Shown here: positions 49,697 through 64,000 of the stretch, piece by piece | Numbering within the stretch: position 1 is the first letter of the stretch | How the letters are laid out: every line of letters starts with the position of its first letter | Assembly: GCA_036504735.1 (NCBI GenBank) | Contig: DASXUQ010000010.1 | Coordinates: forward strand, 1 to 64,000 | Length of the DNA stretch: 64,000 bases | Origin: a bacterium | GTDB taxonomy: Bacteria; Electryoneota; RPQS01 | Reading direction: 5' to 3' | The notes under the pieces: model-generated | Seen by the model: only the letters and a program-made list of their open reading frames with translations | Told to the model about the DNA's origin: nothing | Database searches by the model: none | Position numbers and translations under genes: made by a program

Positions 49697-52600
49697 CTAT
49701 CGAATGAGCATCATCTTCTTGGCGTCGGTGAACTTTCCAGCCTTGAGCTGGTAGATGTAAACGCCGGAAGCTACCGTCGTACCCGCTGTGGTCTTGCTAT
49801 CCCACATCACGCGGTAAGCTCCGGCTGGCCGTACTTCGTCCACGAGCTTGGCCACTTCCTGACCCAGAATGTTGAACACCTTTAGTTCCACTCGTACCGC
49901 ATCAGGCAGATCGAATCGAATTTCGGTATTGGGGTTAAAGGGATTGGGGTAGTTCTGGTACAGAGCATAAGTCAACGGCACTGCCGGGCCTTTGTTCTTC
50001 GCGATCAGGGCCGGATTGTCGATCATGCGGGAGATCTGGGTCACCCGCTGAACCAGCGAACGAATGTCCGCACACCGGACTGCTTCATTTCTTGGACGCA
50101 CGGATCGATCATGCCGATTGAAGAAACACACGCCCATTGCATCCGCCAAAGCCCGAAGTGAATCTCGCGGGGTCTGCGCCGTTTCCATCATTTCCTCTAG
50201 GCCCGAAAGCGCTTCGGAAGGCTTCCCTTCTGCGGCCTTGGCGACAAAGGAGAGTCTCTTGGCAAGCTTCTTCTGCGACGGTTCAATCAACGAATTCGAT
50301 TGCGCCATCAGAAACTTGCTGACGGTCTGATCCGCATCACCTTTACGTGCCATGCGCGTTAGATTCACCATCGCTGCTGGAACGAACTTCGAGCCGGGGA
50401 ATTGCCGCACGAAGTTCATGGTCGCTTGGGCTGCTGCAACCTTGTCCTGATTCTTAGTTAGAACCTTGACGGAGCGCCACTGGTTCAGTTCCTGATGATG
50501 CATCCTTAGCATCTCCGCACGGTCCGGTGCTGCCTTTGCAAGCGATGGCGTCTTGGTGGCTGATAGGTTGGCGGAGTTCACTTTCGTAGCACTCGCCGTC
50601 ATACCAGTGGAGGAAAGCTTGGTCGCCTCAATAGGCACGGTGCTGGAAACAGCGATTACATCGGCTCCGGCGGGTCCGCTTCCATGCCACGAGTCTTCTC
50701 CCGCACGGTCATTATCCCCAGGGATCAGTAGATTAATCGCGCCGCCTCCGACAGACATGGTGCCGCCTTGATCACAGCCCACGAACGTCACGAGGGATGT
50801 ATCCACCAACCAGCGACCAGGAGTATGCGGCCATAAGTGCGAATAGAAAGCCGTGTCTAAAGGTGTAAACGGCGTCCATGTGTTCATGCTGATATCCCAC
50901 GTATCCGTCGTATCGCCGGACTTCAAATAATACCCGGTTCCACCACCCAGCTTGAGGTAATTCTCGCCGTCGCCCAAATCCACCATTGAAGGATCGGCAG
51001 CGTAAATCACCACACCACCCGTATCGGATAATTCCGTGTGGCCGCCGACAAGATTCACCGTACCGTCCTCTACCCATACGTCTGCCGTTGTGTCTCCATT
51101 GATAGATACGTCGCTGCATTCCAGAGACAGGTCTCCGGTCTCCCAATTCAGGATACCATAATTCTTGTTGCCGCTGATGCTGCTATGCGCAATGTCCATA
51201 TCGGAGTAGTAGTAGTTGAATACGCCTACCCCGCCACCATTGATGATTTGGCAGTTATCCAGCCGCATAGTGCTGTATTCCATATTGGTCAAGGCAGTCC
51301 CAAAGCCATTGTATGAGACATCGCCGCCTGCACCCATATTCTCCAGCAGACAGTTGCTCAGATAGCTGGTGGTGTCGTTCCGTCCCCAAAACCAGAGTCC
51401 CTCGGAGAAACTCCTGAAGGTACACGAATCGGCTCGGAAGATCGGAAAGCGATCAGGGTTGTCCATTGGATTATCGTTGCAACTTACCCAGCCTGCTCCT
51501 TCGAGAACGGCATGTGAGAGAACTATTTGGCCGCAGGTGGACTCGATATTGGCCCAACTCGATGTGGTGTCCCAGTGCAGCGTCACCGGACTATCGGCTT
51601 CGCCCTGGACATAGAGTCTGCCGCGTGGGGTCGGCGTGTTAAAGCCTTCCACCCAGATATCCGCGCCGGGCTTGAAGGTCACCACCGCTGGCTTGATGCC
51701 AGGCGTTGGTTTGATCACTAGCACTGCACCCTCGTGAATGTCTATTGCACTGTCCACGGTGCAGGGAGCATACATTACGACGCTATCCGTGATGGAGTAG
51801 CGCGTCCATTTAGATAGTGAAGCGATCAGGTAGTTGATGCTGTCCTGCGTGGCGACCAGGTCCAGGGCGGCAACCGAATCGGTGGGACTGCTGGCTTTGC
51901 TCATCAGGCCGAGATTCAGCAGTTCGATTTGCGCTTCCACCTTCTCTGTGTCTGTCAGCGCGCTGCTCAGCATCGTTTGCATCCGATCATTCGCCTTGTC
52001 CAGATCACCCGAAAACGCCAGTGACCATGCATCTCCATACATAGCAGCTCTGTACATTTGCCTTGACGTCGCGGTATCTGCGATGGACTCGAAGTACCCC
52101 ACGGAGCTTGCAGACTGGTGCGCCAGAATATCTGTGGCAATGAGGTCATGGCTGACCGATTGCGTATACTGGCATGGACCGCTGTTTACAATCACGGCTT
52201 GGTACTGACTTCTTGCGGTAGCGAATTGGCTGGATAGCTCCGCCGATTTGCCATCCACATAATTGCCTTCAACGGCGCACGCGGCTTCGCCTTGCGAAGA
52301 GGATTGGCAACCACTCCAAGTGTTCAGCGGATAACGCAAGGTTACGCCGGAGGGCAAGTGGTTATGGATACTGCCTGTGTCCGTCAGCACCCAGTAGTTT
52401 TGCCGCCACACGTGCGGGCAGTTGGCCACATTGGGGTAATAGATCCATTGCAAATTGCTGGGCTGAGTCAAGCCACTGATACGATTTTGTCCATTGTCCA
52501 TGATAAGCGCCGAGGAGGGAGCACTGATTTGGAGACTGTCTCCGGCGTTGAACTCGACGCGATTCCAGCCCCAGCGAGGGGTCGGCTGGCCGGGGTCAGC

Positions 52601-55600
52601 CATGCCAACCGTCGAATTATAGGCTCCGATACCGCAGCGGTGATTATATACTACGTTGCAGCATTTCAACCATACGCTTGCGCCCCAGGCCGTGATACCT
52701 CCGGCGACGGTCCAGTTTCCGATGCCTACCTCGGCATTGCCCGCGATAGAATCTTGGGTTAAGTAGCAAATCGCATTGCTGACCGCATAGACACCCGCGC
52801 CCTTATTGTTCAGCACTTGCGAGTGATTCAGTTGCAGCGTACTGCCAGTGTTGGAAACGCCATAGGAAGTATTGGTGGCGAAGGTCGAATAGTCCGCGTG
52901 GACATTAGCTCGACTTCCCAGAGCCAGGCCAATGCCGCAGTTACGGAAAGAGCAATGATCCACCACGGCATACGGCGTATCCCAATAGCCGTTTCTTACG
53001 CCTCCTGTGATCGCCAGTCCTGCAACGGGAGCATTCTGGATATCTACGTACCGGAACTCAATGTTGCCCCGGATCGCTTCAATCGCCTGCACTCCCGCCC
53101 AGCCAGCATTCGCATCAGCAGCCTGCAAACGTATGTGTGTGGTATCACTGCCGAGAATGTGTAGCCCCGCAAGGCTGTCCGAGCTGTGCTGGACTGTACG
53201 AATGCCTTTCCCTCGCCAAAACGTGACCGCGGCCACGCTGTCGTAGCGGTATTGCCATGTGCTGCCGACCAGGAAGCTGTCGCGGAGCGCCGACATCCTG
53301 GGCCCAATGGTAAGGTTGCCATTTCCCTGTACGATGATATTGCGATGGAAATAGGCGGGTGCGTAGATCGTTGTATCAGTCGTGATTACCAAATCCGTCG
53401 TGTCGGCCCGGTAGAAATGGAGTAGGTCTCCCTCGCCGGGGCCGAGAGTAACCGCGATTCGGCGTTCCGAACTGCCGCCTGCGGGAATGAACGCTGCCCG
53501 TGCACTTTCCGCCAGCATTGCTTCATAGAAGTACGGTTCGCTGGGATGGCGCACATTGTCAATCGTAAGCCATGCGATGCGATTCTCGTCGTGAAGTGCC
53601 CGTCGGTTGACCACGAGAAACCAGTAGTCCTCCGCCAAGGGGTCAGCGCCTGCGGCCATGAAGCGACTGACTTGGATATAGGTGCTGTCCGCATCTTCAA
53701 GATCGTCGTCTAAGTGACTCGGCGGAACGTGATCGTCCGTCTGGATCTGGGAGATAGTCGAAGGGTTGGTCTGGCTAGCGATTAGCGTGTCGCGTGGATT
53801 GTCCATCGAGCCGTAATTCTGCTCGTAGCGCCGACTGGCATAGGTCTTGACATAGCGCAAGGGCTCCAGCACCGGAGCAATTCGTAGCACCTCCGAATCA
53901 GCGTGCGCTGCTGCCCAGTAATTCGGAGTGCGCTGAAGGTTGACAGGGTTTCTGCACAGCGCGCCGTTCCAGCAATTTGCACAAAGCGAATCCCAAACCA
54001 GAGTGCTTCCGCCGGGTCCAAAGGGGTAATAGATGATCCCATCGGCATCGCACGCTACTGATAGCCACACTCCAAGCTTAACTTCGCCAGGGACCGGAGT
54101 ACGAATTGGCGCAAAATACCCCCCTGCTCCTGTCGAATCGGTGTTATCCACGGCTGTCGCCACCATGCCCCATGATCTGTTTCCGTGCTGGTGATCAAAG
54201 CGAATTTGGTAATCCAAAGCAAACCATGAGGAATCAGCCCATAGCACGTCGGCGGGTATGTCCTCAATAAGATGATCGGAAGAACCTGTGGGGTAGCGCC
54301 TGTAAACTGGACCATCGCCCCATATGTTAACATCTAATGCGCACTGGAGCGATTTGTGCCCCTCCCAGCGGGCAATAGAGGCGCCTTGGTAGTTGCAAAA
54401 ATCTGCAAAGTTCACGTCAATATATGCACCGTTTGACGTCGAGTCCGTTTTCAAGAACTCGACCGAGCTTCCCCCGCAGACAGAAGGTTGAACTGTGCCG
54501 TTTCCCGTGAAATAGAATTCATTCATCTGGATCGGCATGCTAACATTCTGCAGGGCCATCTCCCGGTAGAGATCATCGCGTGCGAGTGTCCAGTAAGGGC
54601 GAGGATTGGTTGGGCTGTGCGGGTTCCCATTCATAAATATTGTGGGCAATTCCTGCGCCTGAATAATCTTGTTCACCTTCACGATGGAGCGAACCTGAGT
54701 ATCTATGTGATGCGAGTCTCCCGACGGCCACTCATCGTAATACCAGCCCGCCACCGTGCCTTGAGAGCTGTCCCAATTCGCTTGAAAGGCCTGCCCGATG
54801 GCGTTCTGCACGGCGGCGGAGTCGGGAGACACCATCATGCGCCAATAGCCTTCATCGTAGACGTCAACCTTACGGATATAAACATCGTGCGCACCGTAAT
54901 AGTGGATCTTCATGCATACTTCGCGAAACCCGTCAAAGCGATGTATGAAGGTACTGTCGAACATTGCCGTATTGCAGTCGTAATTCCAGAAAGTGTGTGC
55001 TTGACTGGTTGCAGGATCAATAGTGAACTCGCGATTCTCAAAATCGTTACCGAGTGATGAGAAGTCGCTGAGGCGAACTACGCATTCAGGATAGCTCCAG
55101 AACCCGTCTTGGTTGTGCCGCTTATCGGAGACATACCATGTTACCCCCAGAATCGGGTCGTTTGAAGATCCGCCGTGCTGCGTGGCGTCACACCACACGC
55201 GAATATGCCAACGCATGTTGGCGCTGTCGGGGTTTGGCGACAGTAATCCGTCCCGGTCAGCCCAGCCCCGAAACCCGCCCAGTTTCATCGTCGGAACCCA
55301 CATGTCGTGGGCGTTTCCGGTTGAACCCTGGACAAATGGCCCGCTTGCGAGAACAGCAACATCGTGCCAATTGGGATTTTGAGTGTACTGTCCCCACCCA
55401 AAGTGCTCCGGTGCCACCCATTGGTCGGCAACATCGCCAACGAAGATTTCGCGGTAGCCGGACTCAAGATACTTGAAGGTCTCGCTGGGCCAGTTCCAGT
55501 TCACGAGCTTCATGTCCCCCGTATAGGCGGCGTGGTTAGCGAAATCGTGGTAATCCTGCACGTAAGGATAGTTTACCATGATGTGCGACACGCCCATGTC

Positions 55601-55843
55601 TCGCAACCAGCTAAGTGCTTGAGTCTCATTACCGATGCGACTGATCGTCAAACGGCTTCGGTCGTACTGAGACATGTTGGACGGGTAGTTCGGGCAATTC
55701 CAATACTCTGATAACCGAACAATCTCTGAACGCGGGTCGTACGATACCATGATGTCAAAGGACAGGGCACACTGCACACAAAACACGAACACGAATGCGA
55801 AAGCAAATGACATACGTGCAAAAAGAGCTGGACCAAATCTCAT
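49697..55843 (-). CDS. giant secreted beta-helix protein with type IX-like sorting domain (copy 2)
   Basis: A 2,048-residue paralogue of the protein at 8308-14547. The start at 55843 (MRFGPALFARMSFAFAFVFV) has AAGGA six bases upstream and is followed by a signal peptide. Domain order is the same: N-terminal region with AGWYYDEWPSGD, two parallel beta-helix regions, helical repeats, and the C-terminal YQNYPNPFNPNTE...ASGVYIYQLKAGKF...MMLIR domain. The C-terminal 90 residues are almost identical to copy 1, whereas the N-terminal half is clearly diverged. It lies 35 bases downstream of its FG-GAP partner. Confidence 0.88.
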   Translation of the reverse strand: MRFGPALFARMSFAFAFVFVFCVQCALSFDIMVSYDPRSEIVRLSEYWNCPNYPSNMSQYDRSRLTISRIGNETQALSWLRDMGVSHIMVNYPYVQDYHDFANHAAYTGDMKLVNWNWPSETFKYLESGYREIFVGDVADQWVAPEHFGWGQYTQNPNWHDVAVLASGPFVQGSTGNAHDMWVPTMKLGGFRGWADRDGLLSPNPDSANMRWHIRVWCDATQHGGSSNDPILGVTWYVSDKRHNQDGFWSYPECVVRLSDFSSLGNDFENREFTIDPATSQAHTFWNYDCNTAMFDSTFIHRFDGFREVCMKIHYYGAHDVYIRKVDVYDEGYWRMMVSPDSAAVQNAIGQAFQANWDSSQGTVAGWYYDEWPSGDSHHIDTQVRSIVKVNKIIQAQELPTIFMNGNPHSPTNPRPYWTLARDDLYREMALQNVSMPIQMNEFYFTGNGTVQPSVCGGSSVEFLKTDSTSNGAYIDVNFADFCNYQGASIARWEGHKSLQCALDVNIWGDGPVYRRYPTGSSDHLIEDIPADVLWADSSWFALDYQIRFDHQHGNRSWGMVATAVDNTDSTGAGGYFAPIRTPVPGEVKLGVWLSVACDADGIIYYPFGPGGSTLVWDSLCANCWNGALCRNPVNLQRTPNYWAAAHADSEVLRIAPVLEPLRYVKTYASRRYEQNYGSMDNPRDTLIASQTNPSTISQIQTDDHVPPSHLDDDLEDADSTYIQVSRFMAAGADPLAEDYWFLVVNRRALHDENRIAWLTIDNVRHPSEPYFYEAMLAESARAAFIPAGGSSERRIAVTLGPGEGDLLHFYRADTTDLVITTDTTIYAPAYFHRNIIVQGNGNLTIGPRMSALRDSFLVGSTWQYRYDSVAAVTFWRGKGIRTVQHSSDSLAGLHILGSDTTHIRLQAADANAGWAGVQAIEAIRGNIEFRYVDIQNAPVAGLAITGGVRNGYWDTPYAVVDHCSFRNCGIGLALGSRANVHADYSTFATNTSYGVSNTGSTLQLNHSQVLNNKGAGVYAVSNAICYLTQDSIAGNAEVGIGNWTVAGGITAWGASVWLKCCNVVYNHRCGIGAYNSTVGMADPGQPTPRWGWNRVEFNAGDSLQISAPSSALIMDNGQNRISGLTQPSNLQWIYYPNVANCPHVWRQNYWVLTDTGSIHNHLPSGVTLRYPLNTWSGCQSSSQGEAACAVEGNYVDGKSAELSSQFATARSQYQAVIVNSGPCQYTQSVSHDLIATDILAHQSASSVGYFESIADTATSRQMYRAAMYGDAWSLAFSGDLDKANDRMQTMLSSALTDTEKVEAQIELLNLGLMSKASSPTDSVAALDLVATQDSINYLIASLSKWTRYSITDSVVMYAPCTVDSAIDIHEGAVLVIKPTPGIKPAVVTFKPGADIWVEGFNTPTPRGRLYVQGEADSPVTLHWDTTSSWANIESTCGQIVLSHAVLEGAGWVSCNDNPMDNPDRFPIFRADSCTFRSFSEGLWFWGRNDTTSYLSNCLLENMGAGGDVSYNGFGTALTNMEYSTMRLDNCQIINGGGVGVFNYYYSDMDIAHSSISGNKNYGILNWETGDLSLECSDVSINGDTTADVWVEDGTVNLVGGHTELSDTGGVVIYAADPSMVDLGDGENYLKLGGGTGYYLKSGDTTDTWDISMNTWTPFTPLDTAFYSHLWPHTPGRWLVDTSLVTFVGCDQGGTMSVGGGAINLLIPGDNDRAGEDSWHGSGPAGADVIAVSSTVPIEATKLSSTGMTASATKVNSANLSATKTPSLAKAAPDRAEMLRMHHQELNQWRSVKVLTKNQDKVAAAQATMNFVRQFPGSKFVPAAMVNLTRMARKGDADQTVSKFLMAQSNSLIEPSQKKLAKRLSFVAKAAEGKPSEALSGLEEMMETAQTPRDSLRALADAMGVCFFNRHDRSVRPRNEAVRCADIRSLVQRVTQISRMIDNPALIAKNKGPAVPLTYALYQNYPNPFNPNTEIRFDLPDAVRVELKVFNILGQEVAKLVDEVRPAGAYRVMWDSKTTAGTTVASGVYIYQLKAGKFTDAKKMMLIR

Positions 55844-55878
55844 CGCCAATCCTTTCTGCAAGACTTTGTAAAGATCTG

Positions 55879-57405
55879 TTACCGAAGTACCATGAGTTTC
55901 TGCGTGGTTTGCGCTGCACCGGCTTCAGCGCGGAGAAAGTACACGCCTGTCGTAAGTGGCGTGGCAGTGCGCTGTGAATCGAAGTGATAGGTCAGGGCTT
56001 CACCGAAGGCCGGGAGCGTGGTCTGGAAGGCCACTTGCCCCAGCACGTTGTACAAGGTCAACGTGACTTCCCGCGCCGAGGGAGGAACCTGTAGGGCAAT
56101 GTTGGCTTCCGAATTAAAGGGGTTGGGGTACACTATCACTTGAAGCAGCTGCGGAATCGCCGCATGCGGCTGAGCAGCGTCGGCCCGCCACGCACTATCG
56201 CCTCGGAGAATCAACGCTCTTCCCCGCCAGCCGACATACGCGAGGTCATCCCACGCTCCGATACCTAAATCGTCAATGCTGTCTCCATTGACATCGCCCA
56301 GATTGGCTGCCGTCTGAACGCTGATGAGGTTGAACGGCGGGCTGTCCCCATAGATCGAGAAGGCCGGTTCCGAGTAAATCCACGGATGCCCTAAGTACAA
56401 CGACAAAATGCCGTTGGGAGAATTGTCGCAGTAGGAGCGGATCTGCACGAAGTCCTGATAGCGGTCATGGTTGAAATCCCCGGCGCTGATCACCTCTGTC
56501 GCTCCGCTGCTGCACGGGAAGTTGACGGTAACGTCCGGTGTGGAATGCAAGACCGGCCCGCCGAAGTGAATCTCCGCGCCGCCGATTGTCGTCACAATCA
56601 GTTCGTCGCTGCCATCGCCGTTCAAGTCCTTGACAATCCCGCGTGGCGGGTACAGCATATTCGGCCACGTGTATGCGGGAACCGTATCGGGATGCGCTCC
56701 TCCGACAAAAATATAAGCCGCATCTGTGAGGTATGAGTAGCCTACAAAGTCCGCACAATGATCACCGTTGAGATCACCGAAAGAAAGAGGGATCACTTGC
56801 TGCGGTTGCCCTACGGGGCTGCGGTGCGTCCAGTTCGGCATAATGTCAGGTGGATTTCCGCCATAGAAAACATCCAGTGCGTCCGCGAAGTAATGATACC
56901 AATACAGATCGCTATAGCCATCCCCGTTGAAATCGCCTACCGTGCCGAAGTAATCCGCCCACGGGATGCGCCAGGTGAGAGCAGCAGTGGTGTCCGCGTT
57001 AGGGCCGCCCAAATACACATTGACGCGGAAGAAGCCTGTGGTGTCATACAACTTGATAAACCAGTCGGTGTAGCCATCTCCATTCACGTCACCCAGGTCT
57101 CCAACTTGTCCCCAATGAGCGAAAATGCCCTGCTGGGTAAGATAGGGCAGCATTGAGGGTGGATTGCCTCCGTGAAAGAACTCTAAATGGCACTGAGAGG
57201 TGTCGTGCCCAGCACCAGCCGACAGCACAGCCCAATCGTCGAAGCCGTCATTATTCTGATCTCCTAATGGCAGAAGGGCGTACCCGTATCGGCTGCTGTC
57301 CGCTGCACCTACACGGCTCCAGATTAAGTGCAGAGAATCGGGCTGGGCCTGAATTGCAGCCGATAGACTTAACACTGCCATCAGCGCCATCGTAAGGGAT
57401 TTCAT
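55879..57405 (-). CDS. secreted FG-GAP repeat protein with type IX-like sorting domain (copy 2)
   Basis: A 508-residue paralogue of the protein at 14584-16128. The start at 57405 (MKSLTMALMAVLSLSAAIQA) has GGAG seven bases upstream and a signal peptide. FG-GAP calcium loops DVNGDGYTD, DFNGDGYSD, DLNGDHCAD, DLNGDGSDE, DFNHDRYQD and DVNGDSIDD are in the same order. The C-terminus contains VYPNPFNSEANIAL and GVYFLRAEAG ending KLMVLR. It is the first gene of the copy-2 operon. Confidence 0.88.
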   Translation of the reverse strand: MKSLTMALMAVLSLSAAIQAQPDSLHLIWSRVGAADSSRYGYALLPLGDQNNDGFDDWAVLSAGAGHDTSQCHLEFFHGGNPPSMLPYLTQQGIFAHWGQVGDLGDVNGDGYTDWFIKLYDTTGFFRVNVYLGGPNADTTAALTWRIPWADYFGTVGDFNGDGYSDLYWYHYFADALDVFYGGNPPDIMPNWTHRSPVGQPQQVIPLSFGDLNGDHCADFVGYSYLTDAAYIFVGGAHPDTVPAYTWPNMLYPPRGIVKDLNGDGSDELIVTTIGGAEIHFGGPVLHSTPDVTVNFPCSSGATEVISAGDFNHDRYQDFVQIRSYCDNSPNGILSLYLGHPWIYSEPAFSIYGDSPPFNLISVQTAANLGDVNGDSIDDLGIGAWDDLAYVGWRGRALILRGDSAWRADAAQPHAAIPQLLQVIVYPNPFNSEANIALQVPPSAREVTLTLYNVLGQVAFQTTLPAFGEALTYHFDSQRTATPLTTGVYFLRAEAGAAQTTQKLMVLR

Positions 57406-57584
57406 CTGCCGCTCCAAACATTAAAGCCCTGCTTCGGACAAGTCAAAGCAAGGCGGCTAAGTATCTCGGACGTAGGAATCGAATCAGAATCAAAGTGGTG
57501 ATGACAGCCCAGTCCCATGACAGTCTTCACTTACCGCTGAACGATACCGAAGTTCTTACTAATCTTCTATTTCCCTTCCCACTC

Positions 57585-57860: not shown

Positions 57861-57879
57861 GAAAGCCCGGAAGGCTCTC
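57861..57879 (-). terminator. weak terminator of the ubiquitin-like operon
   Basis: On the minus strand GAGAGCC-TTCCG-GGCTTTC folds into a seven-base stem (one G-T pair) followed by CTTTT, just after the last stop codon at 57887. Confidence 0.55.
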
Positions 57880-57886
57880 CTTAGCG

Positions 57887-58129
57887 TCATCGCCTGAGTA
57901 GTCGCCTCAACCTGCGTTCACTCTCGATTACCTTCCCAAAGTCTTCATCCGTCACACGAACAACGCGGTGGATTTCCTGCCGTGGAGAACGCTCTCGAAG
58001 CTCGCAGGTGTGATATTCAGCGTCTCCAGAGAGAATCCGCTTCATGGCGTCTTCTGGGTTGTCAGCTTCTGCGCGGTAGTGAACACCATATTCCCATCGT
58101 TCAATCGTCTCGATCTCGAAGGTCGGCAT
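57887..58129 (-). CDS. small operon protein, unknown (80 residues)
   Basis: An 80-residue protein starting MPTFEIETIERWEYGVHYRA. It looks like a compact alpha/beta domain with a basic C-terminal tail (SERRLRRLLRR). No family is recognised. It follows the preceding gene by three bases and is the last gene of the ubiquitin-like operon, so co-translation is likely. It could be a substrate, a regulator or an adaptor; none is shown by sequence. Confidence 0.6.
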   Translation of the reverse strand: MPTFEIETIERWEYGVHYRAEADNPEDAMKRILSGDAEYHTCELRERSPRQEIHRVVRVTDEDFGKVIESERRLRRLLRR

Positions 58130-58132
58130 CGG

Positions 58133-58387
58133 CTAATCCTCCACACGCTGGCAAATGCACAGGGCAGTTGAATGCCCACATGCAGGACAGCGTTCATCCG
58201 CTTCAATGCGGTCCAACTTCACCTGGCCGACAATCAAGTCAACGAGGTAATCCTTCGGGGATCGCTTCAGAAAGTGTTGCAAAGCCTTCTGGGCTTCGTC
58301 TTCGGTTACGTCACCTGGCTTCTTGCAAGCACTCTTGAAGTCAACGCGAATTCCGAATGGCTGGAAGAACGCTGTATATTTAGGCAT
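58133..58387 (-). CDS. small zinc-binding operon protein, unknown (84 residues)
   Basis: An 84-residue protein ending ERCPACGHSTALCICQRVED. CPAC and CIC supply a likely single zinc site. The rest is helical with a basic segment (ACKKPGDVTEDEAQKALQHF). It starts 12 bases after the E1 stop codon and overlaps nothing. No family is recognised. Its constant zinc motif next to E1 and E2 genes makes a conjugation-related role plausible. Confidence 0.6.
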   Translation of the reverse strand: MPKYTAFFQPFGIRVDFKSACKKPGDVTEDEAQKALQHFLKRSPKDYLVDLIVGQVKLDRIEADERCPACGHSTALCICQRVED

Positions 58388-58399
58388 CAGCGTTCTCCA

Positions 58400-59056
58400 T
58401 CACGTCATCAATGTGAAAGTCGCCAGATCCAGCACGATCCGTTGCGGAATCTGCTCTTCATTCACGTATCTTTTCACTAGGTTGCAGAGCACAGCAGCAG
58501 CCATCAAAGGCGTGTAGCACACCGTCCTTGCCGTACACGGTTCAGCGAGTGAATCGGCATCTGTATGCAGCGAATCCCAATACCGACTCCTCTCTTCACG
58601 GACTTGAGGATGCATAGTGTACACGATAAGAGTATCAAGTCCCATGCGCGCATCCAGGTACAATTTCACTGCTGGCTGACCGCGTACGGCACGAAAGATC
58701 GTGTTCCGAGAAACCATCGAATCCACAGCCGAAATGACTACTTCGGTTAGTGGCTGGTCTTCATACTTGGCAGCAATTGCATTGGGAGTGTGTCCACCGA
58801 ACTGCTGCATGACTTCCGACAAAGCTGTGCATTTCAGTTTGCCGATGTCTTCATCGCGGTAGAGTTGGTTCGACCAGTTATGTTCTTCAACGTAATCCGA
58901 GTCGTAGATCGTAAGGCCGCAGGCACCCATCTTGCCCAGGAACACAGCCGTGGTGCTTCCGATTGCACCTGCACCGATGAGGGTGATGCCGAGTCCGGTA
59001 AGACGGGACATGTTGACCGCGTCTTGCTGGCGAAGGTGGCGAAGATCGTTGTCCAT
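58400..59056 (-). CDS. E1-like (ThiF/UBA) activating enzyme
   Basis: A 218-residue minimal adenylation domain. GITLIGAGAIGS (residues 23-34) is the nucleotide-binding loop, DSDYVEEHNWSNQ holds the conserved acidic and N-x-Q positions, and EPCTARTVCYTP provides the candidate catalytic cysteine (C174). There are no extra E1 domains and no zinc CxxC pairs. It would adenylate the C-terminal Gly of the Ubl and pass it on. It overlaps the JAMM gene stop by one base. Confidence 0.85.
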   Translation of the reverse strand: MDNDLRHLRQQDAVNMSRLTGLGITLIGAGAIGSTTAVFLGKMGACGLTIYDSDYVEEHNWSNQLYRDEDIGKLKCTALSEVMQQFGGHTPNAIAAKYEDQPLTEVVISAVDSMVSRNTIFRAVRGQPAVKLYLDARMGLDTLIVYTMHPQVREERSRYWDSLHTDADSLAEPCTARTVCYTPLMAAAVLCNLVKRYVNEEQIPQRIVLDLATFTLMT

Positions 59057-59781
59057 CAGAACGGCCTTTCCAGTTCATCTGCTTCTCCGGGGTAAAACCA
59101 GTCCATTTCTTCTTGAAGCTCTTCCATCGTCAACGCGCCTCGGTCATGTGCGGCCCGGAGGTCAGTCACATGGTCTTGCGTGTCACGAGCCAATTGACGA
59201 TGCCCGTTGAAGCCATGCGCTTCTTCCAGCACCTTGGCTTTGAATTCGGTGAGACATTGTTCGGCCAATCCGTCAATCAAGGGGTAATGCACCTCCCAGA
59301 CTACGTCCGTTAAGAATAAATGTGCCGGATGATACTGGTCAAGCCGCATCATCGAATCGCGCTTCCTGTTGACCACAAGGCTGAGTAGATAATCACCGTT
59401 AGCCAGGCCCGCGATTGTATCATCGTCTGTTCCTGACCAAAATACCGACATATTTGCGTGAGAATGTGCGAACATTCTTAACTTACGGCTGTCGATGCCC
59501 TGAGCTTCGAGATCAAGCATCAGCTGTGCTACTGCCGCCGGATCCATCGTTGTCTCATCAGCTGAACACCTCTGCTTCAAGAGGAAGAATTCTGTTACTA
59601 GCAGGGTCGATACTGCGCCAGAGTTGGCGTCGAGGATTTCCTCGACCAAACCCAAAGCCGAGACTTCACCCTTGGCAATGTCAACCCACGCCCAGAACTT
59701 CGCCATTGCCACGGCTTCCACCTCTACACGGATTGACAATTGCACGGGATCACGCCGCGACTTGTTCTGCCACTGATTCAT
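59056..59781 (-). CDS. JAMM/MPN-type deubiquitinase-like protease
   Basis: A 241-residue protein with a complete JAMM zinc motif: E39, then H106-S-H108-x7-S116-x2-D119 (FAHSHANMSVFWSGTDDD). AGGAGGT lies five bases before the ATG. Its role in such operons is to trim the Ubl precursor to expose Gly-Gly and to remove Ubl from targets. The C-terminal quarter (GHRQLARDTQDHVTDLRAAH) is an additional helical tail. It overlaps the E2 gene by 32 bases. Confidence 0.85.
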   Translation of the reverse strand: MNQWQNKSRRDPVQLSIRVEVEAVAMAKFWAWVDIAKGEVSALGLVEEILDANSGAVSTLLVTEFFLLKQRCSADETTMDPAAVAQLMLDLEAQGIDSRKLRMFAHSHANMSVFWSGTDDDTIAGLANGDYLLSLVVNRKRDSMMRLDQYHPAHLFLTDVVWEVHYPLIDGLAEQCLTEFKAKVLEEAHGFNGHRQLARDTQDHVTDLRAAHDRGALTMEELQEEMDWFYPGEADELERPF

Positions 59782-60889
59782 GGGTGACCTCCTCGGTTGT
59801 ATCTTTCGGACGGTTAGGACAGTCTTCTTCGTCGTGGTCTACGTATTCATTGCAGTGATCGCACCACCAGCAGCTATCACACTCGCTTATCGTATGACCA
59901 TAGTCGTCGCAGTAGCTGCAATAAGGCTCTTCATCATCGCTGGGTTCTTCGTAGTCAGGATCCCAGCGTTCAATCTTTTGGTAAGGATCAGCGCTGTTGT
60001 ACGAGGAAAGAAATTGGTGCACCAATTGGAATAGACCAAATAAGTCAAGCTCTCCGGACAATCGGCTTACAAGATGGCCGCAGTTGCCCCAACAGATGTT
60101 TGATGGCTCGTCTGTCACATGCGGATGCACATAACCGTTTATGTTTGTTCCGCCTGATATCCGAGTCTTCCCTTGTCGAAGGTTTACCTCGACCTCATAG
60201 GGGTCGAATCTGTAGTCGTAACCGTCATACGAAATCACGATCTCATGCGTGACACCAACCAGTGACTCGTCTTCGATTCTGAAGCTGGCGTAAGTGCTCG
60301 GTACGAGCTTCATCAGATCTACGAATGTGTGGTTTGCCCGGCGTCTTATCCACTCCGGGTCGTGTCGGAACATCTCCAACAACTGCCTATCCGTTTCCAG
60401 CTTGCGGGAGAGCTGCATGACTTGTAAGGACAGGCGCTCTAACTCGTATGAGTCTTCGCGTATGGACGCTTGTAGTTCGCGCTTACGATCCGACACGCAG
60501 CCAGCGATGCTCTCGATCAATGCGTCCTTCTGCTGATGGCGATACGCTCTACAGAGCTTCGGTAAATGCTGATCAATCAGCTTACGAACGAACGACAACG
60601 CAGACGGATTCTTCGGCCAGATCAGAAATACGAGCCACTGCTTTCCGATTCGAGCCACAGGAACATCGTCGCACACAATGAGATCACCCGGCAGAAATTT
60701 GGCAAAGCCCGGTTCGTGTAGCACTACCATATCTGAGACGTGTTTCGTCGTCGAGACGTTGCCTGGCAATGCAACCGCCAACCCAGTGCGGTCCCAACTT
60801 TCTGCTTGCCAACTGTCCGTCAGGTCGACAATTGGGCAGTGATACTTCTGCGCATAGAAGCGTAAGAGATCCTGAATCTGTTGAATCAT
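59750..60889 (-). CDS. E2-like conjugating enzyme fused to C-terminal zinc knuckles
   Basis: A 379-residue protein. Residues about 190-300 look like an E2 fold: strands HEIVISYDGYDYRF and YEVEVNLR, then HPHV (255-258) and NICWGN with C266 as the predicted thioester cysteine, followed by a helix. Residues 1-125 are an N-terminal domain of uncertain type (PGDLIVCDDVPVARIGKQWL resembles PUA-like strands) and 125-175 a coiled coil. The C-terminus has C324-x2-C327-x4-H332-x4-C337, an exact CCHC zinc knuckle, then C340-x2-C343-x2-C346-x5-H352-x4-C357, a second knuckle-like cluster. GGAGG lies near the ATG. A fused zinc domain could act as an E3-like or RNA-binding module. Confidence 0.78.
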   Translation of the reverse strand: MIQQIQDLLRFYAQKYHCPIVDLTDSWQAESWDRTGLAVALPGNVSTTKHVSDMVVLHEPGFAKFLPGDLIVCDDVPVARIGKQWLVFLIWPKNPSALSFVRKLIDQHLPKLCRAYRHQQKDALIESIAGCVSDRKRELQASIREDSYELERLSLQVMQLSRKLETDRQLLEMFRHDPEWIRRRANHTFVDLMKLVPSTYASFRIEDESLVGVTHEIVISYDGYDYRFDPYEVEVNLRQGKTRISGGTNINGYVHPHVTDEPSNICWGNCGHLVSRLSGELDLFGLFQLVHQFLSSYNSADPYQKIERWDPDYEEPSDDEEPYCSYCDDYGHTISECDSCWWCDHCNEYVDHDEEDCPNRPKDTTEEVTHESVAEQVAA

Positions 60890-60913
60890 AGATTGTTTCC
60901 TCCGGAGGAAGAA

Positions 60914-60943
60914 GAGCCCTGACAGATTACTCCATCAGGGCTC
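60914..60943 (-). terminator. intra-operon hairpin between the Ubl and E2 genes
   Basis: GAGCCCTGA (60914-60922) and TCAGGGCTC (60935-60943) form a perfect nine-base stem. On the minus strand it lies between the Ubl stop (60991) and the E2 start (60889) and is followed by T/C-rich sequence. It may act as a leaky terminator or processing site that makes Ubl more abundant than the enzymes. Confidence 0.6.
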
Positions 60944-60990
60944 CTCTTATGTCTGGTAGCGGTGTAGGACGGACCGCCAACAGATCCTCC

Positions 60991-61200
60991 TTAGATTCCG
61001 CCTTTGACCTGCGGCACCAGCGTCAAAACGCTGCCGTCGGTCAGCACGTCCGAATCGAACGCGGGCGAGCCGTTGACGTGGCGCGTATAGCTCGAATCCT
61101 TCGGGAAGCCAGCCTGCTGAATGGCGGCTTCGACGGTGGTGCCTTCTTCAATTTGGATCTCATTTGCGGATCGTCCTAAGCACAAAACCTTGACTTTCAT
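60991..61200 (-). CDS. ubiquitin-like beta-grasp modifier ending Gly-Gly-Ile
   Basis: A 69-residue protein, MKVKVLCLGRSANEIQIEEG ... HVNGSPAFDSDVLTDGSVLT, LVPQVKGGI. The strand-strand-helix-strand order is a ThiS/MoaD/ubiquitin beta-grasp. The end is KGG followed by one Ile, so a single-residue trim by the JAMM protease would expose Gly-Gly for activation by the E1. AGGAG lies eight bases before the ATG at 61200. It is the first gene of the operon. Confidence 0.82.
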   Translation of the reverse strand: MKVKVLCLGRSANEIQIEEGTTVEAAIQQAGFPKDSSYTRHVNGSPAFDSDVLTDGSVLTLVPQVKGGI

Positions 61201-61315: not shown

Positions 61316-63340
61316 ATGCCATATCGTGAACGTACGTCGCAGACTGAGGCGCTGCCTTCGGTTGATTTCGTAGATTTACAGACTGCCCTGCATGAAATTG
61401 AACTGCATCTGGAAGGCGGTGCTCCGCCTACAGGGTTTGGTCATCCTGCATCAGTCCTGACGAGTTCGTTTGCAGGCTACCTTCCGAAACTCCTTCGTCT
61501 CCTGTGCGCCACTGATGATAGACACCGAGCTCTAAAATTTGCGGACGGTTTGCGCCGTGTTCGCGATCAACTCCTGACTCGGAGATGCACGTACAGTCTT
61601 GCAGTGCTCTACGTCAAACTCTTGAGGCAGGTGGCTCATTACATATACGAATCCGACGCTGAATTCAGCAAAGCTGTGGCCGACCAGTCAGCTGATACAC
61701 TCGGCACGTTGCTACCCGCTTACGTTCCCGCTGTTCGTCAATTATGCGCCCAATTGCGTCACACAGACGCCGCAAAGGATGCTTTCAAGACGCTTCATCT
61801 CGGAGCACTTATCCTGCAAGAGCTCGACTATCCAGTCTCAATCATGTCCCCTCGAGAGCAACAGACCGTGGCTAAGCTCAGAGCAGACACAGAAAAGATT
61901 TTGACTCCATGCCTATTGGAGTGCGAACGACAAGCTGGAAAGGCCGTCGTCAAATTCTATATTGCTACAGAGAAAGGTCGCCATGAGGACTTGACAAACT
62001 TACGCGATGAGATTGAATCCCTTGAACACATGCTGAGCCAGTACGGATTTCTGTTTCATTCCAAACACGTTCAGGTGCACACCAGCAGATTGCGCTGCGC
62101 ACGACTTGCCATTCAAATGACGTATGGCCTCTGGCCAAGTAAGTGGCTCCTCTCGAATGATAGAGCTGATGACGGTATCATTACGAGACGAAATCTGGAT
62201 CGTCTTGATGGGCGGATGGGCGCAGAGCACTTACAGAAGATTGCGGAATCAGTGAACCAGTTGCTCGCACTTCACGAAAAGGAATTAGGCGACTTCTACC
62301 ATGCGAAGGAAATTTGTTTGTTGAGGAGCTTCTTCAATTCGCTGGCACCATTCCGGAATGTCATCCAACTGAAGTTTGTCGCTGATTTTACCCTGGCTGC
62401 GCATCTTAATTATTTGGTGAGAAGGTCGAAGGGGACTCTGGAAGAGTTCCTGTCGGCATATAGCGGCGATATCCGGGCCGTAAGTGAAATGCTGGCGAGC
62501 ATTAGAGATGAGGATATCACGGACTTCGCACTGTACGTCGCGAACAATAAGGAATCTGTGGGCACTATGCAATTCGGAACACTGGTTGCCGTGTTGCTCC
62601 GGCCCCGAATCGACGAGGAGCTTCCCTCAGCGGTTAAGTCGGCGATCAACCACTTGGCTCAAGGTCTGTCACAGACAGCAACTGCCATGCCCAAGGTTGA
62701 CCTCTTGGACAACTTGCGGCGTGCCCTATGCAGTTATGTGCAGTCGCACCTCGCAAATAGAGGTTATTGGGCGAAGACTAATGCGCCGATACGACAGGAC
62801 AAGCAGGATTTGGATAGCTATCCGGCAGAGGCTCGCTTCAATTCGAAGGACAAGGAACGTGATTTTTTCAAAGCTGTAGCGCGGTTGCGAGAACAGTCCT
62901 CGCAGAAGTGGATCGAAACAATAGAAGATGTCGTCAGGAAAGCAGAGAAGTTAGCGCAACAGCTACTTGACCTTCATCGAGGAGCCGAGGAGAAGGGTTG
63001 GGACACCAAGAAGGTAGTAATCACAATGCGGAAGTCAGTTCTTAACGGGCACAAGACCGTGCGCGATTATATTGATAAGGAGCTGACCGAGTCATCCCCG
63101 CATGAGAAGAAGGGATTCTCCTATCTCGTTGGGCGGTACGCTGTGCTGAAGCTAGCTACCGTCATTAACAACGACTCGTCGCTCGCGGTCTACTTTGGGC
63201 TCGTGGACGAGTTTTGTGAACCGGAAGGACTGTTCAAGTATCTAAACCTCCTCGGCCTACTACGGGACGACATCTTCGGTGATCATCGGTTCCAGCGGCT
63301 GAGTCAGCGCGAAAAGAAGTTCTTGGGGCTTGAAGTTTGA
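61316..63340 (+). CDS. large helical protein of unknown function
   Basis: A 674-residue protein, mostly alpha-helical by composition, with no recognised catalytic motif or membrane segment. It begins MPYRERTSQTEALPSVDFVD without a clear ribosome binding site, and is divergent from the ubiquitin-like operon with 115 bases between start codons. It may belong to the same system as a target or sensor, but only position supports that. Confidence 0.65.
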   Translation: MPYRERTSQTEALPSVDFVDLQTALHEIELHLEGGAPPTGFGHPASVLTSSFAGYLPKLLRLLCATDDRHRALKFADGLRRVRDQLLTRRCTYSLAVLYVKLLRQVAHYIYESDAEFSKAVADQSADTLGTLLPAYVPAVRQLCAQLRHTDAAKDAFKTLHLGALILQELDYPVSIMSPREQQTVAKLRADTEKILTPCLLECERQAGKAVVKFYIATEKGRHEDLTNLRDEIESLEHMLSQYGFLFHSKHVQVHTSRLRCARLAIQMTYGLWPSKWLLSNDRADDGIITRRNLDRLDGRMGAEHLQKIAESVNQLLALHEKELGDFYHAKEICLLRSFFNSLAPFRNVIQLKFVADFTLAAHLNYLVRRSKGTLEEFLSAYSGDIRAVSEMLASIRDEDITDFALYVANNKESVGTMQFGTLVAVLLRPRIDEELPSAVKSAINHLAQGLSQTATAMPKVDLLDNLRRALCSYVQSHLANRGYWAKTNAPIRQDKQDLDSYPAEARFNSKDKERDFFKAVARLREQSSQKWIETIEDVVRKAEKLAQQLLDLHRGAEEKGWDTKKVVITMRKSVLNGHKTVRDYIDKELTESSPHEKKGFSYLVGRYAVLKLATVINNDSSLAVYFGLVDEFCEPEGLFKYLNLLGLLRDDIFGDHRFQRLSQREKKFLGLEV

Positions 63341-63542: not shown

Positions 63543-64000
63543 ATGAGAAAGGCTGACGATGCACCTAGGCGTTGGTGTCTGCTTGCAGACGGTGCCAAGG
63601 CGCTGGGTCTGAAACTTACGGACGAAGCTCAAGACTTGGCAACACAACATAAAGCCATTAAGATGGTAGATGGCGTGTTCCTCGTAAACGTTGAGAAGAT
63701 CCGCAAGGCGCTGGAAAAAGCGGCGAGCAGCCGAGGGGCTAAGGGAGGGCGACGTGGCGGGGGCTTCAATCCCTTCCGGAAGCATGTTGGGCGGATCGAA
63801 GGCACCATGCGGCGTAATAAATCCGCACTGGCAACTGCTGAGGCGAAGATTTCGGGTTTACAGGCTCGGCTGGCTGACCGCTCTCTGACCTTTTATGATC
63901 AGGAGACGGTGCTCTTGGCTATCAAGAAGCTTGAAACTGAAGTTGTGCATCGTCGCAAGCGTGTCGACGAGGACCAAGCCGAGATCTCGACGCTAAAGAA
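63543..64000 (+). CDS. coiled-coil protein of unknown function, 3' end outside the window
   Basis: An open frame of 152 codons from ATG at 63543 to the window edge. AAGGAG lies seven bases before the start. It begins MRKADDAPRRWCLLADGAKA; a Gly/Arg-rich basic segment (SSRGAKGGRRGGGFNP) follows at about 62-78, then a long coiled coil (ISGLQARLADR ... AIKKLETEVVHRRKRVDEDQ). No family is recognised. Confidence 0.7.
   Translation, partial: MRKADDAPRRWCLLADGAKALGLKLTDEAQDLATQHKAIKMVDGVFLVNVEKIRKALEKAASSRGAKGGRRGGGFNPFRKHVGRIEGTMRRNKSALATAEAKISGLQARLADRSLTFYDQETVLLAIKKLETEVVHRRKRVDEDQAEISTLK

Follow-up and report, generated by a model that had tools for sequence, protein, structure and literature searches.

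Prokaryotic ubiquitin-like protein (Ubl) systems mostly offer no obvious means of choosing a target unless a separate E3 is present, and the locus described here raises the question of whether an E2 can bring that function with it. It lies in a window of 64,000 nucleotides, the whole stretch of DNA that was analyzed (contig DASXUQ010000010.1 of assembly GCA_036504735.1, positions 1 to 64,000), from a bacterium of the phylum Electryoneota; below, the genome is called G000 and this contig C10. Between positions 58400 and 61200, on the minus strand, four genes encode in order a Ubl modifier, an E2-like enzyme, a JAMM/JAB metalloprotease and a minimal E1, and the E2-like enzyme ends in two CCHC zinc knuckles. 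Judging from these genes and their surroundings, we think it reasonably likely, with a probability of roughly 0.6, that they form a self-contained Ubl conjugation system carried on elements that target tRNA and tmRNA genes, in which a zinc docking module built into the E2 would act in the manner of an E3, probably in biological conflict.

The four-gene core

The preliminary description of this DNA had read six minus-strand open reading frames (ORFs) as one operon. All six are found in that order and their coordinates are confirmed, and each of the motifs it named is present in the translations: the KGG-I end of the Ubl, HPH and ICWG in the E2, the E/HxH/S/D set of the JAMM protein, the minimal E1, and a CPAC/CIC pair in one small protein. 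The coding sequences of E2 and JAMM overlap, as do those of JAMM and E1, which fits a single transcript. Among the operon proteins, Pfam places the Ubl in ThiS and the E1 in ThiF above cut-off and the JAMM protein weakly in Prok-JAB; the E2 and the two small proteins of the window, S1 and S2, have no informative Pfam match, and S1 is also without any family match.

The Ubl precursor (60991-61200, minus strand, 69 residues) is a ThiS/SAMP2-like beta-grasp protein whose closest PDB match is SAMP2 (5lda, 2.6e-8) and whose C-terminus is VKGG plus 1 residue. V65-K-G-G68 is invariant in 15 copies, followed by 1-3 residues that differ between copies, and an invariant GG with a short unrelated tail predicts trimming. 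The JAMM/JAB metalloprotease (59056-59781, minus strand, 241 residues) carries the motif E39, H106-S-H108-x7-S116-x2-D119, the named residues of which are invariant in 13 copies, has an acidic C-terminus with a final Phe, and weakly matches PRTRC_A in 12 of 13 family members. The minimal E1/ThiF-like enzyme (58400-59056, minus strand, 218 residues) is a single adenylation domain with a GxGxxG motif; it matches Pfam ThiF at 4e-14 and, as its closest PDB relative, UBA5 at 1.8e-10. Its C174 is invariant in the family and aligned with a Cys of the E1s of crAss-like phages and PRTRC cassettes, and the Cys of a jumbo-phage E1 falls one column off C174 in the alignment.

The small genes downstream of E1, which had been proposed as partners that define the operon, turn out to have scattered relatives at the 17 places in the phylum where the E2 occurs. 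S1 (58133-58387, minus strand, 84 residues, CPAC-x7-CIC) has a single recognizable relative there, in genome G006 (L024), with a similar C-terminal motif after E1. Relatives of S2 (57887-58129, minus strand, 80 residues) follow E1 in C9, C5, and G010:C10, at 37-75% identity. S1 and S2 are accessory and lie outside the conserved operon, and a six-gene operon was rejected for this reason.

The E2-like enzyme and its zinc tail

The E2-like enzyme (59750-60889, minus strand, 379 residues) consists of an alpha/beta domain (residues 1-110), a long helix or coiled coil (about 95-173), an E2 core (about 174-312) and a zinc tail (324-357). HPH occupies residues 255-257 and C266 lies in ICWG, and this site, HPH-x5-8-C-x-G, is invariant over four bacterial lineages in its HPH, its Cys, and the Gly two positions after the Cys. 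A profile of the own-phylum E2s ranked the putative E2 2onu third among 177,635 PDB sequences (E 0.61). Profile A8, made from the own phylum, genome G077, and a jumbo-phage sequence, had 2onu as its top PDB match (E 0.05) with HP and Cys aligned, and profile A9, made from four bacterial lineages, had 3we5 as its sole PDB match up to E 10 (E 0.12), in which the His and the Cys again line up. It is because E2s are repeatedly chosen by these profiles, with catalytic residues aligned, that we regard this protein as a probable E2; alignments by hhalign of the E2 core profile with single phage and PRTRC proteins were uninformative. The structure 3we5 is UbcA1, an E2 of the Ube2w family in which HPH replaces HPN and the second His has been proposed to stabilize the oxyanion (PMC4630614). 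The match to this family may be biased by the HPH itself, and conjugation to protein N-termini is at most a lead.

The zinc tail (59819-59920, minus strand) contains two exact knuckles, C324-x2-C327-x4-H332-x4-C337 and C343-x2-C346-x5-H352-x4-C357, as the preliminary description had claimed, and between them an additional invariant Cys, C340, that it had overlooked. C324, C327, H332, C337, C340, C343, C346, H352, and C357 are all kept across the own phylum in operons of the same order, with three copies deviating. The C5 copy is decayed, with HPH changed to SPH, one knuckle Cys changed to His, and no integrase. In the copy of genome G001 (L025 9295-10422) an in-frame TAG falls between the knuckles of an otherwise intact operon; this may represent a truncation, read-through, or a sequencing error. 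The third, a divergent copy in G018, is without the His of the second knuckle. In eukaryotes, knuckles of the CLIP type serve to bind proteins. Pfam recognizes CLIP1_ZNF in 5 of the 13 members, at best with E 0.00096 and not in the window copy, and the zinc tail matches the CLIP1 knuckle of PDB entry 3e2u at E 0.21. This weak resemblance to CLIP-170 (CLIP1) points, if anywhere, to the binding of protein over RNA, and RNA targeting by the knuckles, as had been suggested, does not appear to be favored.

Copies in the phylum and their mobile context

The E2 is present four times in G000, on C10, C9 (89%), C5 (80%), and C2 (73%), within a range of 73-100% identity, and each copy is accompanied by Ubl, JAMM, and E1. 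Across the phylum, 10 of the 39 genomes contain it, at 17 places of which 2 are fragments. A chance origin of the zinc-tailed operon is excluded by the four copies in G000 and by the recurrence of the cysteine pattern elsewhere in the phylum. The four-gene core keeps its order in the copies of the own phylum as well as in two further lineages. In the E1 tree the C2 copy falls with other genera (93/89), so the four copies of G000 do not stem from a single recent duplication. Synonymous sites are mostly saturated, and the few finite whole-gene ratios of nonsynonymous to synonymous substitution rates (dN/dS) are low, at 0.07-0.16.

A tyrosine integrase accompanies 12 of the 16 copies in which that side is visible, and 10 of these 12 integrases immediately adjoin a tRNA or tmRNA gene: tRNA-Lys (C10 and G001), tmRNA (C9 and G005), tRNA-Ser (C2 and two copies in G009), tRNA-Asp (G007), or tRNA-Glu (G004 and G002). 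On C10 the element continues beyond the window with two unknown genes, the tyrosine integrase (C10:66301-67407), and tRNA-Lys (67666-67741), and the C9 element includes excisionase-like and replication-initiator-like genes. Given the integrases and their adjacency to tRNA and tmRNA genes, integrative elements at these sites carry the operon as cargo, a context that the preliminary description had missed. DNA-level likeness between the G000 copies is confined to the operon, and the remaining parts of the elements differ. The C5 copy stands divergent to a patatin phospholipase-CD-NTase-E2 operon of the cyclic-oligonucleotide-based antiphage signaling system (CBASS; L006 11746-14701).

Upstream of the Ubl gene lies a divergent gene (61316-63340, plus strand, 674 residues in the window). 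Its N-terminus changes between copies, being a sigma54-type AAA+ domain in some and helical or unknown in others, and its C-terminal region is related in most copies, the likeness of the window protein to the others there being weak (E 0.003). This arrangement suggests a modular protein that is probably a sensor or regulator.

Relatives in other lineages and in phages

Profile searches for the wider family, covering up to 386 genomes per search, recovered homologous operons in three further bacterial lineages, two with other zinc tails and one without. Genome G077, from another phylum, has a Ubl ending VEGG-N, an E2 with HPHVSSDGIPCLG whose long tail is rich in Cys, a JAMM protein, and an E1. 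Genus g107 has an E2 with HPHIREGVPCLG that lacks a zinc tail, a JAMM protein, and an E1; its Ubl gene comes last, and in genome G110 the Ubl encoded after E1 terminates exactly at GG. In family f143 an E2 relative is present in 15 of 61 sampled genomes, at up to four places per genome (loci L085 and L098-L106), and the operons, where examined, consist of a Ubl ending KIEGA..., an E2 whose site reads HPH...LCEG or LCVG and whose tail is multi-CxxC, a JAMM protein, and an E1. The complete f143 genome G434 has four such places, three with similar scores, and an AAA ATPase is encoded near the copy in G173. The E2s tested from these three lineages had no informative Pfam, NCBIfam, or PADLOC family match, and the f143-type operons may have been described earlier in the literature.

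The crAss-like phages also carry a cluster in the order of the bacterial operon, Ubl-like, E2-like (at the level of motifs), JAMM, and E1 (L066 2251-6603; L070 1885-5600; for example, PhiCrAssBcn18 genes 94-97). It differs from the window operon in that the Ubl has a long C-terminal extension, the E2-like protein reads HSH...PCTG and lacks a zinc tail, and the setting is a phage genome. The E1 (5e-30) and the JAMM protein (1e-6 with our JAMM profile, in a small reference set) of these phages are the best-scoring outside proteins compared. Their genes are annotated merely as hypothetical protein, metalloprotease domain, and “thiamine biosynthesis protein.” The Xanthomonas jumbo phage PhiXhv-12 (L069 2196-5570) encodes an 892-residue protein with IHPHM...LCLG, a coiled coil, and Cys-rich ends, adjoining an E1-like gene. 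Zinc tails after an E2 core are found in the own phylum, G077, and f143, and probably in this phage. Erwinia phage Ep032 likewise has an E2-like HPH...CLG protein beside an E1-like gene. Searches of IMG/VR with E2 and JAMM, of plasmids with E2, and of phages with JAMM returned no relatives. In the E1 tree, under midpoint rooting, the own-phylum clade (96/97) joins G077 and g107 (92/90), with f143 and the phage rows next and PRTRC outside; the position of the phages, on long branches, is unsure.

Comparison with described systems

A match of the whole operon to a described subtype was sought in the family libraries and none was found; no known family model describes a zinc-tailed Ubl-E2-JAMM-E1 operon. 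The preliminary view of a distinct subtype thus survives in part: the operon is set apart from Bil by its architecture and from PRTRC by the family cut-offs, whereas the small genes do not define it.

The PRTRC cassette (A, B, C, and ThiF), by our reading operon type 6d of Iyer 2006 (PMC1779556), follows the same gene logic, is borne on mobile elements, and in Polaromonas has the order Ubl-E2-JAB-E1. The window operon differs in the HPH and zinc tail of its E2, and the E1 tree places PRTRC outside. Against NCBIfam cut-offs, the PRTRC_A model reached 15.7 of 101.8 bits and PRTRC ThiF 39 of 144.75, with B and C unmatched, and PRTRC_B passed its cut-off in none of the 39 phylum genomes. Among the part of the neighboring genes that was scanned, no ParB-like gene was recognized. 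Membership in PRTRC was rejected because every family cut-off was missed.

BilABCD, an ISG15-like anti-phage operon, resembles the window operon in its four genes and their order, Ubl, E2, JAMM, and E1. BilA contains two Ubl domains, BilD combines IAD and AAD adenylation domains with further domains, and BilB has a C-E-H-H motif (PMC11354881), whereas the window operon has a 69-residue single-domain Ubl, a 218-residue single-domain E1, an HPH-C site, and a zinc tail. There is no invariant C-E-H-H pattern after C266 of the E2, and the invariant active-site His is upstream. Membership in Bil was therefore rejected on domain architecture (single Ubl, minimal E1) and E2 motif. CapW, CapH with CapP, and CapK with CapS, which are frequent, not universal, neighbors of Bub operons, were absent by Pfam from five divergent genes, that of the window and those of four further copies, all of which have either AAA+ or no informative domain.

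The Caldiarchaeum operon, which encodes E1, E2, a small-RING E3, and Rpn11, constitutes a minimal cascade in which the pro-Ubl is trimmed by the JAMM protease (PMC5654768). By analogy it is the nearest functional counterpart with an E3, the difference being that its RING E3 is a separate gene while the zinc module of the window operon is fused to the E2. The E2s of the Ube2w family, such as UbcA1, share HPH in place of HPN and differ in being eukaryotic single UBC domains that modify N-terminal amino groups and have no coiled coil or zinc tail.

Proposed mechanism and alternatives

Taking the gene set and order, the catalytic and zinc residues, the Ubl precursor tail, and the element context as our starting point, we infer the following enzymatic steps, zinc role, and function. 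The JAMM protease would trim the 1-3 residues after the GG of the Ubl. The single-domain E1 would then adenylate the Ubl and form a thioester, likely at C174, from which the Ubl would move to C266 of the E2, with the second His of HPH taking the oxyanion role that usually belongs to the Asn of HPN. The zinc module of the E2, with help from the N-terminal domain and the coiled coil, would dock a target or partner and so do the job of a separate E3, and JAMM could later take the Ubl off again. The system most likely takes part in conflict between the host of the element and phages or rival elements, with the divergent gene in control, and an anti-phage function is plausible.

Several observations weigh against this proposal. 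The PDB profile E-values of 0.05 and 0.12 are suggestive and neither is significant alone. AlphaFold2 models of the E2, both whole and as core plus tail, are of low confidence from about residue 140, the predicted local distance difference test (pLDDT) score being good only for residues 1-130, and Foldseek searches with these models gave no significant E2 match. The structure prediction called for by the preliminary description has thus been run, and its poor models neither support nor exclude an E2 fold; the predicted order of elements (helix, beta-meander, active-site loop, helices) fits the UBC fold, but at low pLDDT. Direct repeats of the att type were sought at the element ends and none was convincing, leaving the ends undefined. 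Finally, genus g107 keeps the core but no zinc tail, which makes the tail dispensable for the core reaction.

The foremost alternative, which we consider a serious if somewhat unlikely possibility, is that conjugation is real but serves the element, in the control of excision or integration, in superinfection exclusion, or in modifying phage or host proteins for its own spread, as phage and plasmid relatives may do. Most copies stand in a mobile context, relatives of the E1 are encoded by crAss-like phages, jumbo phages, and the PRTRC cassettes of plasmids, and there are up to four copies per genome that do not reflect one recent duplication. On the other hand, one copy lies beside a CBASS operon, and phage defense systems ride such elements too, so that context does not separate the two readings.

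It is also conceivable, though to us doubtful, that the zinc tail makes no choice of target and is merely a structural or dimerization element, or a dock for the operon's own JAMM protein, since an acidic stretch and Phe end 13 of 13 aligned own-phylum JAMM proteins. The tailless g107 operon would fit this, as would the protein-binding habit of CLIP-type knuckles. A tail that varies between lineages and is absent in one fits an exchangeable recognition module, with a structural role also admissible on that pattern, but the very different zinc architectures at the same place are a better fit to a fast-changing recognition module. A sulfur-carrier or cofactor pathway of a ThiS/MoaD-like carrier, a ThiF-like adenylyltransferase, and JAMM, without protein conjugation, was rejected as highly improbable: Pfam and NCBIfam do score the Ubl as ThiS and the E1 as ThiF, but an E2-like protein with an invariant His/Cys active site is always present, the Ubl needs trimming, the distribution is mobile and patchy, and no cofactor genes were recognized adjoining the copies examined.

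If the conjugation reading with a built-in docking module is correct, a zinc module that is conserved yet exchangeable and belongs to the E2 itself, as seen in three lineages of bacteria and probably in a jumbo phage, would make the origin of E3 function testable in four genes, with g107 as a natural control. The invariant HPH site predicts unusual chemistry, possibly on N-terminal amines. The placement at tRNA and tmRNA genes and the CBASS neighbor of one copy link systems of this kind to mobile-element conflict; that crAss-like phages share the gene order suggests a use by phages as well. A bolder extension, which we regard as a long shot, is a bacterial class of E2-E3 hybrids in which a Ube2w-like HPH core would place a GG modifier on protein N-terminal amines, exchangeable zinc modules would choose the target, and the whole would spread between phyla, phages, and elements as a conflict system.

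Neighboring genes

Past the divergent gene, the next gene of the element (63543-64000, plus strand in the window) is part of a 191-residue ORF that extends beyond the window to 64118. On the other side, at 49697-57417, a 2054-residue protein and a 512-residue FG-GAP protein whose C-terminal tail is of the Por secretion type are encoded adjoining the element. Proteins of these two kinds flank several other copies as well, probably as common genes of these genomes.

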